Shown one piece after another: positions 4,944 to 5,953 of a stretch of 35,851 nucleotides of DNA. The translations under genes were made by a program, and so were the position numbers. The DNA is taken from positions 1 to 35,851 of the IMG/VR virus record IMGVR_UViG_3300030419_000739. One strand, 5' to 3'. Source of the stretch: a virus. The notes beneath the pieces were generated by a model, which worked only from the letters and a program-made list of their open reading frames with translations, did not search any database and was not told the DNA's origin. Each line of letters begins with the position of its first letter. The first letter of the stretch is position 1.

Positions 4944-5060
4944 CTATATATTGTGTACTTTCATAGACATACTACATCTAGTAGGTGCACTATCACAGTA
5001 ATACCTAGGTTGATCACCAATTTGTTTTAGTGTATTTTTACACTCTTTACATACTTTCAA
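4944..5060 (-). CDS. Possible zinc-finger microprotein with TTG start
   Basis: A 38-residue frame with CKEC ... PRYYC ... RC, the spacing of treble-clef fingers in which a CxxC pair is followed by RRYC and a final Cys. The only plausible start is TTG, with no clear Shine-Dalgarno; a TATATT box about 10 bases upstream could give an almost leaderless mRNA. The Cys pattern is better than chance, but start and expression are doubtful. Confidence 0.3.
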   Translation of the reverse strand: MKVCKECKNTLKQIGDQPRYYCDSAPTRCSMSMKVHNI

Positions 5061-5143
5061 TAAGATAAGAATAATATATTTTTTTTTAAAAAAGACAGAA
5101 AGAATATTACTTACCCTGTGCCACTCCCAACCCAACCAGAATG

Positions 5144-5157
5144 ACTAAAGATTTAGT
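5144..5157. promoter_or_regulatory. Palindrome, possible operator
   Basis: ACTAAAGATTTAGT is a 6-bp inverted repeat around two bases. The half-site TTTAGT recurs inside the hairpin at 5335-5364. The repetition near promoters suggests protein-binding sites, but no binding protein is known. Confidence 0.35.
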
Positions 5158-5278
5158 AGCATATAACAATGTGGAATAATAGGCTATGACCCTAGTTACT
5201 ATGGTCCAGCTAGTCCACTTGTCCTGTTGTTTGATCCAATATTTCTTTCCTAAGAGCTGGAGAAATATCTTGTTTGTG

Positions 5279-5307
5279 TTGTCATACTATCACAAGGTTT
5301 CTATAAT
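5279..5307 (+). promoter_or_regulatory. Strong sigma70-type promoter of a structured RNA unit
   Basis: TTGTCA (5279-5284), 17-bp spacer, perfect TATAAT (5302-5307). The predicted start near 5314 falls at the foot of the 9-bp inverted repeat 5315-5335. A TCCTAAGA half-site lies upstream (5248-5255), and two more copies form the repeat at the start, so a repressor could sit there. Confidence 0.7.
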
Positions 5308-5314
5308 GCAAAGT

Positions 5315-5335
5315 ATCTTAGGAAAGTCCTAAGAT
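5315..5335. repeat. 9-bp inverted repeat at the predicted transcript start
   Basis: Arms ATCTTAGGA (5315-5323) and TCCTAAGAT (5327-5335) flank AAG. The half-site TCCTAAGA also occurs at 5248-5255. It could be an operator overlapping +1 or the 5' hairpin of the RNA. Confidence 0.75.
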
Positions 5336-5364
5336 TTAGTTATAAATAAATATCTATAACTAAA
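5335..5364. repeat. 10-bp inverted repeat
   Basis: Arms TTTAGTTATA (5335-5344) and TATAACTAAA (5355-5364) are perfect complements around a 10-base loop and abut the preceding hairpin. Confidence 0.75.
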
Positions 5365-5471
5365 GAAAAAGAAGATAGCTGATCATCATATAGTTATGTA
5401 TGTGGGGATTGATTCAAGTTATTATTTTTTTTCTTTCATTACAGTAAATGGACAGACTGTACGGAACAGAG

Positions 5472-5497
5472 CCCTGCTTACCGATTGGCAGGGTTTT
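5472..5497 (+). terminator. Intrinsic terminator of the structured RNA unit
   Basis: CCCTGC (5472-5477), 10-base loop, GCAGGG (5488-5493), then TTTTGTTT. Two more weaker pairs extend the stem. It is a GC-rich island in very AT-rich DNA. No plus-strand gene precedes it, so it must end either a non-coding RNA or leakage toward the late promoter that starts six bases downstream. Confidence 0.8.
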
Positions 5498-5502
5498 GTT
5501 TA

Positions 5503-5531
5503 TTGACTATAAATACATAATGATATATAAT
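5503..5531 (+). promoter_or_regulatory. Late promoter for the rightward structural block
   Basis: TTGACT (5503-5508), 17-bp spacer, perfect TATAAT (5526-5531). It is the best consensus match in the window and lies directly after the terminator. The predicted start (about 5538) is the first base of a small hairpin. Confidence 0.8.
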
Positions 5532-5537
5532 GAAATT

Positions 5538-5602
5538 ACTCATTTCTTATGAGTATCAACTTCCCTGTTTGATTAACCAATAAACCCTAGCTAGTCTAGG
5601 GT
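5538..5602 (+). promoter_or_regulatory. Hairpins in the late-transcript leader
   Basis: Two perfect stem-loops: ACTCAT/ATGAGT (5538-5554, 5-base loop) at the predicted 5' end, and ACCCTAG/CTAGGGT (5584-5602, 5-base loop) just before the AAAGG ribosome-binding site of the first gene. They may protect the 5' end or tune translation. Confidence 0.5.
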
Positions 5603-5616
5603 ATGGAAAGGAAAGT

Positions 5617-5736
5617 ATGACAGATATTTATGTACAAGATTGCGACCAATGTTTGAATCCTTTTTGGGAAGATCAATTAGAAGAAGGATTGTGTCCTACT
5701 TGTGGTCAAAACGATTTAGCAAGTTTCTTTGAATAA
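5617..5736 (+). CDS. Zinc-ribbon microprotein, 39 aa
   Basis: A 39-residue protein with CDQC (Cys9-Cys12) and CPTC (Cys26-Cys29) around an acidic linker (LNPFWEDQLEEG): a minimal zinc ribbon. AAAGG lies 6-7 bases before ATG. It is the first gene after the late promoter, and its stop faces the stop of the minus-strand gene 5747-5953 across 10 bases of A and T. Being first in the late transcript hints at a regulatory or assembly role. Function unknown. Confidence 0.75.
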   Translation: MTDIYVQDCDQCLNPFWEDQLEEGLCPTCGQNDLASFFE

Positions 5737-5746
5737 AAAATTTTTT

Positions 5747-5953
5747 TTACGCCTTCGGCTCTTGTAAGCCTTCAGGCTTTTGTCTGCCTTTAATACGAGG
5801 GTATGTTTTTGTTTTATGAGCATTACAGTATCTGTACTTGTTATATTTTGAAATAACAGTATTACAGTTTTCCTGCAAACAAATTCTTCCACTACTATAT
5901 GAAGTAGAGGGTTTGTAATTAGGATATTTATTTCCTTTTATATAATCACTCAT
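5747..5953 (-). CDS. Zinc-finger protein with YN-YC-H and YPRIKG motifs, 68 aa
   Basis: The 68-residue protein from MSDYIKGNKY has CLQENC (C-x4-C), then TVISKYNKYRYCNAH and YPRIKGR. I recognise this pattern (Cys pair, YNxxxYCxxH, PRxRG) from small actinobacteriophage proteins, where Cys and His probably bind zinc; no function is established that I know of. The frame stays open upstream, but those residues are unlikely coding and ATG 5953 is the first sensible start. It has no Shine-Dalgarno; a TATACT box 9 bases upstream suggests a leaderless mRNA. It is the only leftward gene inside the rightward block. Confidence 0.65.
   Translation of the reverse strand: MSDYIKGNKYPNYKPSTSYSSGRICLQENCNTVISKYNKYRYCNAHKTKTYPRIKGRQKPEGLQEPKA
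5766..5779 (+). terminator. Weak hairpin with T run
   Basis: AAGCC (5766-5770), TTCA loop, GGCTT (5775-5779) then TT. It lies in the end of the minus-strand gene and 30 bases after the 39-residue gene. It is a possible weak rightward attenuator. Confidence 0.25.

Follow-up and report, generated by a model that had tools for sequence, protein, structure and literature searches.

The DNA ahead of the late genes of the virus record IMGVR_UViG_3300030419_000739 appears to encode a non-coding, structured RNA about 185 nt in length, which we call RNA A. We analyzed positions 1 to 35,851 of the record, and this stretch of 35,851 nt is referred to as the window. Comparison with related phages establishes for RNA A a predicted start and stop, a fold kept by selection, and a single copy in each locus, placed before the late operon. 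We lean towards the view that RNA A stands alone as a phage RNA, is made where the late region begins and itself acts. The features discussed here are collected in Table 1.

Table 1. Features around RNA A in the window, with strand and supporting evidence.
Feature	Positions	Strand	Description	Evidence
P1	5279..5307	+	sigma-70-type promoter of RNA A, TTGTCA (5279-5284), 17 nt, TATAAT (5302-5307)	sequence match and conserved -10 position
RNA A	5314..5501	+	predicted structured non-coding RNA, about 185 nt	fold (z -6.67); relatives
H1	5315..5335	+	hairpin at predicted 5' end, 9 bp, loop AAG	covariation in 38 copies
H2	5336..5363	+	hairpin touching H1, long-loop form in the window phage	fold; relatives
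H3	5364..5434	+	long irregular hairpin, purine-rich arm with pyrimidine-rich arm	fold; 12 folded relatives
H4	5440..5461	+	hairpin TACAGT-AAATGGACAG-ACTGTA; UGGACA (5449-5454) conserved in relatives	relatives
H5	5464..5501	+	intrinsic terminator, core stem 5472-5493, T-run 5494-5497	fold; terminator after H4 in 134 of 134 listed sites
P2	5503..5531	+	next same-strand promoter, TTGACT-17-TATAAT	sequence match; promoter-like site in 118 of 134
Leader C	5538..5602	+	leader behind P2: hairpin TACTCATTTCTTATGAGTA, conserved CTTCCCTGTTTGATTAACC, hairpin CCCTAGCTAGTCTAGGG	sequence; relatives
Early-operon promoter (putative)	5284..5311	-	TTGCAT (5311-5306), 16 nt, TAGTAT (5289-5284)	sequence and conservation in the RNA B alignment
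RNA B	5109..5281	-	structured leader upstream of early genes: hairpin, loop-loop pairing CCAGCU/AGCUGG, second hairpin, outer helix	covariation

Fold of RNA A in the window

RNA A is laid out as the promoter P1 followed by five hairpins, H1 to H5, the last of which is the intrinsic terminator. The plus strand from 5314 to 5504 folds at -62.6 kcal/mol, compared with -34.7 +/- 4.2 kcal/mol for 200 dinucleotide shuffles (z -6.67), and none of the 200 shuffles folded equally well. A preliminary description of this DNA had proposed a single structured unit with two touching hairpins at its 5' end, a GC-rich intrinsic terminator, and a late promoter six bases after the T-run. The unit is real, although the inner hairpins H3 and H4 had been missed. 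H1 and H2 do adjoin, and the 9 bp of H2 become 10 bp if U5335-A5364 is counted instead. The core of the terminator pairs CCCTGC (5472-5477) with GCAGGG (5488-5493), and flanking A/U pairs extend the hairpin to the full length of H5. Our hairpin scan covered loops of 3-8 nt and did not list H5 because its loop is 10 nt. The T-run ends at 5497 and the TTGACT of P2 starts at 5503, as had been described.

Covariation among relatives

We fetched 80 loci related by their large terminase, most of which align to parts of the region, and aligned 40 complete copies of the RNA A unit. The order H1-H2-H3-H4-H5 recurs in 12 full-length relatives that were folded singly, and their stem sequences differ. For H1 in 38 copies, 99.2% of the cells are paired, compared with 73.5% when the partners are shuffled, and there are 72 two-sided changes compared with 19.5 shuffled; the 38 copies are related to one another, so these changes are not independent events. 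Versions of H1 slid by 1-3 columns drop to 10-58% paired. The extraction pattern partly fixes the two innermost H1 pairs, and it is the outer five that carry the evidence. The stems of H2 also change on both sides among the relatives, so compensatory changes, which the preliminary description had named as a check, occur in both of the first two hairpins. Terminator stems have many different sequences and all of them are paired. The H4 stem is nearly invariant, and hence uninformative by covariation, whereas the UGGACA of its loop stays the same among relatives.

In relatives the length of the unit ranges over 168-206 nt. We considered a coding gene inside RNA A and rejected it, since the indels between copies are not multiples of three and break the reading frames; the relatives have no conserved gene here, in agreement with the original reading of the region as lacking a well-initiated one.

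Promoter and transcript start

P1, which was also part of the preliminary description, matches at 11 of 12 positions and its -10 ends 7 nt upstream of H1. Taken alone, this match is weak evidence in such AT-rich DNA, where we found 25 promoter matches of this kind and 21.8 were expected from shuffles. P1 is supported because the spacing between the -10 and H1 is conserved: 66 of 71 distinct upstream regions have a -10-like hexamer 4-9 nt ahead of H1, compared with 26% at random. A hairpin at the 5' end is therefore a constant feature of RNA A. The sequences further upstream differ in type: some adjoin the early region, which is the arrangement in the window, and others lie elsewhere, following an A-run and T-run and often a G-run. 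With the fixed -10, the compensatory changes and a terminator in every relative that has H4, the suggestion of a phage small RNA of about 185 nt holds up well as a prediction.

Two kinds of simple sequence were seen near these promoters. A G-run of 6-8 (C in L229) lies just upstream of the -10 of the RNA A promoter in many of the distant relatives, L094, L097, L111, L114, L119, L130 and L169 among them, and is a possible activator site. An A-run followed by a T-run (AAAAAAATTTTTTT) recurs at gene ends near regulatory regions, at about 5735-5748 in the window and just before RNA A in L097, L099, L136 and others.

Distribution, synteny and modular forms

We scanned two H4 patterns over viral contigs, plus all of our other loci. 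Among the matches listed there are 134 distinct H4 sites with the loop UGGACA in 134 loci, one in each; these sites were located by H4 sequence, so that conservation of H4 is partly built in and the counts describe H4-bearing units rather than the whole phage group. An intrinsic terminator follows H4 in all 134 listed sites, and H4 is always within a few nt of it. A late-region marker, meaning a small late protein or the terminase, is downstream on the same strand within 5 kb in 115 of the 115 listed sites with at least 1.5 kb downstream, and on the opposite side in none. Just behind the terminator, 118 of the 134 listed sites have a promoter-like site, either TTGAC-17-TAnnnT, which is the window's own form, or an extended -10 located within the T-tail (TTTTGTGTTATAGT), motifs with random rates of 1.7% and 0.4%. 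The terminator abuts or overlaps this next promoter in most copies.

The preliminary description had placed the RNA between the early and late promoters. This is true of the window; in other lineages RNA A is hundreds of bases from the early region. In another group it is about 520-1220 nt from RNA B (described below), often behind a zinc-ribbon gene, and still directly before the late operon. Because RNA A always stays with the late operon, even far from the early region, the predicted late promoter is its constant neighbour.

The unit also varies in its parts. An extra segment, short or about 90 nt, lies between H3 and H4 in 13 of 112 sites, and the smallest form kept is H4 and H5 alone (L010, L086, L108). 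Relatives without the hairpins had been named as a point that would count against the RNA. As noted above, full-length relatives share the fold; L046, L050 and L055, however, are without RNA A, and in them P1 runs straight into the leader that P2 serves in the window. In L068 and L085 there is a different short terminated RNA in place of RNA A. Since some close relatives are without it or have another RNA, not every phage of the group needs RNA A.

What RNA A may do

In the reading that we favour, polymerase would begin RNA A at P1, the transcript would fold from its first bases into H1 and H2 and be released at H5, and P2, a few bases further on, would start late-side transcription anew. While expression changes over to the late genes, H4 would present its conserved UGGACA loop to a partner, either a protein or another RNA, which we infer to be the same across these phages or their hosts. 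H1 to H3, together with the optional extra domain, would protect or tune the H4 element. We favour this stand-alone reading because of the promoter-like site behind the terminator and because there is no competing hairpin. An upstream segment complementary to the terminator arm (exact 6-nt) was found at 0 of 112 sites with 2.2 expected, and on this basis we rejected an attenuator with a competing antiterminator hairpin. In the window we found no convincing target for the H4 loop near start codons, and H4 itself confounds a raw excess of TGTCCA in the loci. The control of the early-to-late switch that was first proposed would be a possible role, for which we found neither a competing antiterminator structure nor an H4-loop target in the window. 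We did not adopt a CsrA-type sponge with GGA in its loops, as the H2 loop is without GGA in the window and in the GAAA forms.

A somewhat unlikely alternative, though one we take seriously, is that RNA A gates the late operon as its leader: transcription from P1 would stop at H5 early and later read through into the late genes with an antitermination factor, which would perhaps bind H4 beside the terminator. The strict synteny favours this, because a trans-acting RNA would not need to be directly before the late operon and on its strand at every listed site where this could be scored, even where the surrounding gene order changes. The closeness of H4 to the terminator points the same way, and there is a precedent in lambdoid Stx phages, where transcription from pR' ends at tR' and the terminated RNA is a regulatory sRNA, StxS (PMC8065619; PMC12197685). 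With a promoter-like site behind the terminator in most listed copies, read-through would not be needed, and the absence of segments complementary to the terminator arm also speaks against gating. Lambda Q acts at DNA near the promoter, and a gate of that type would leave the conservation of the whole RNA fold unexplained. The two readings may both hold, and a released leader RNA may have a role of its own too.

We consider it improbable that only the act of transcription matters, with P1 and H5 insulating or interfering with P2 and the RNA a by-product. The way the terminator runs up to or into the next promoter would suit such an arrangement, but the H4 loop is conserved and H1 and H2, which lie far upstream of H5, show compensatory changes, and both facts require that selection acts on the RNA. 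Less probable still, to the point that we give it very little weight, is a structural role for RNA A in the virion or in the packaging motor, comparable to that of phi29 pRNA, which is similar in size to RNA A. RNA A does precede an operon that holds the terminase large subunit; however, this terminase matches the standard large-subunit family phrog_38, some relatives have H4 and H5 only or no RNA A, and we noticed no complementary loop pair.

Comparison with known RNAs

Searches of Rfam 15 with RNA A, RNA B and the extra domain (window plus 7 loci) gave no family at the gathering threshold, and the best permissive hits were far below it. We found no tRNA or tmRNA, no DNA match for the region or for RNA B among 50,697 records of cultured phages, and no match in GTDB contigs for the portal protein or the RNA B motif. 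In the literature we found no marine-phage RNA of this kind.

The closest layout is that of lambdoid pR'-tR' and StxS, in which a promoter and an intrinsic terminator flank a short RNA where the late region starts. RNA A has all three of these elements at the head of its late operon. It differs in its conserved five-hairpin fold and in having a separate promoter-like site behind the terminator, a site that the lambdoid type, with late genes reached by read-through alone, would not have. The likeness is one of layout; we claim no sequence relation. The put RNA of HK022, with a length of about 70 nt, suppresses termination and works on early operons (PMC9378689). Its two stem-loops open a phage transcript, as H1 and H2 do in RNA A, and RNA B likewise sits just behind the putative early promoter. 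RNA A, in contrast, ends in its own terminator and the H1 and H2 stems are not conserved in sequence; tandem stem-loops near a promoter are all it has in common with put. PreS, VpdS and Sar are trans-acting phage sRNAs (table in PMC12197685) and are also small phage transcripts with their own ends, but RNA A exceeds them in length and in structure and keeps synteny with the late operon, and we found no pairing target for it in the window.

We describe RNA A as a new, apparently undescribed RNA family of a known general kind, the promoter-proximal terminated phage RNA, and we claim no membership in a named family. It belongs to uncultured marine phages, whose early and late regulation is hardly known, and experiments could build on its predicted ends, its conserved loop and the compensatory variants that nature provides.

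RNA B and the early side

On the other strand, RNA B looks like a second undescribed RNA family, whose loop-loop fold is independently supported by covariation. It is conserved in more than 100 viral contigs among the matches listed. In 60 sequences, 94.3% of the cells are paired, compared with 84.0% shuffled and 35-53% slid, and there are 199 two-sided changes compared with 57 shuffled. We counted on the named structure, as a mutual-information covariation count was noisy in the 3' half. In an alifold consensus there is also an invariant helix, GUGG/CCAU, which would close the second of the two kissing loops. We assign RNA B to the minus strand because many U-G pairs occur in that sense. A minus-strand coding gene was rejected, as relatives have 1-nt indels.

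RNA B sits between the early genes and the putative early-operon promoter, a weak match that overlaps P1 on the opposite strand. The first early gene varies by lineage, which makes a gene-specific riboswitch unlikely; RNA B may act in a general way, on how the early operon is transcribed or how stable its RNA is. The early operon of the window showed few terminators, so position would be the one argument for a role in antitermination.

A 38-aa zinc-ribbon protein (TTG start, KVCKECKNTLKQ...) is encoded right behind RNA B at 4944-5060 on the minus strand and is conserved in L015, L048, L068, L085 and L104; the gene falls below the length and start choice of the ORF list. To the right of RNA B, a conserved hairpin GTAGGAGTTTCCTCCTTTCGCCTAC within a longer G/C stem is present in L097, L099, L103, L114, L136 and others, and its loop, read on one strand, is similar to the 16S anti-Shine-Dalgarno and, read on the other, to a Shine-Dalgarno.

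A segment seen in both RNAs

A segment of about 90 nt (AGGTGCGAGGACCT...AACAACTGCCT) is found within RNA A in L009:2255, L212:404 and L119:7795 and, in the same RNA sense, within RNA B in L135:11851 and L255:2067. It is possibly an exchangeable RNA domain. That RNA A and RNA B, as leaders of two opposite programmes with this domain and a UGGAC element in common, form one new RNA-based control system and set the early/late order by acting on the same machine seems to us unlikely, though worth stating. If true, the shared machine for the two would be RNA polymerase or a common RNA-binding protein.

The late side

Leader C, like RNA A, opens with a hairpin at its predicted 5' end, and its CTTCCCTGTTTGATTAACC is conserved in 44 contigs. 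Behind P2, at 5617-5736 on the plus strand, is a gene for a 39-aa zinc-ribbon protein (MTDIYVQDCDQCLNPFWEDQ...); L094, L114, L136 and L229 have relatives of it on the opposite side of RNA A.
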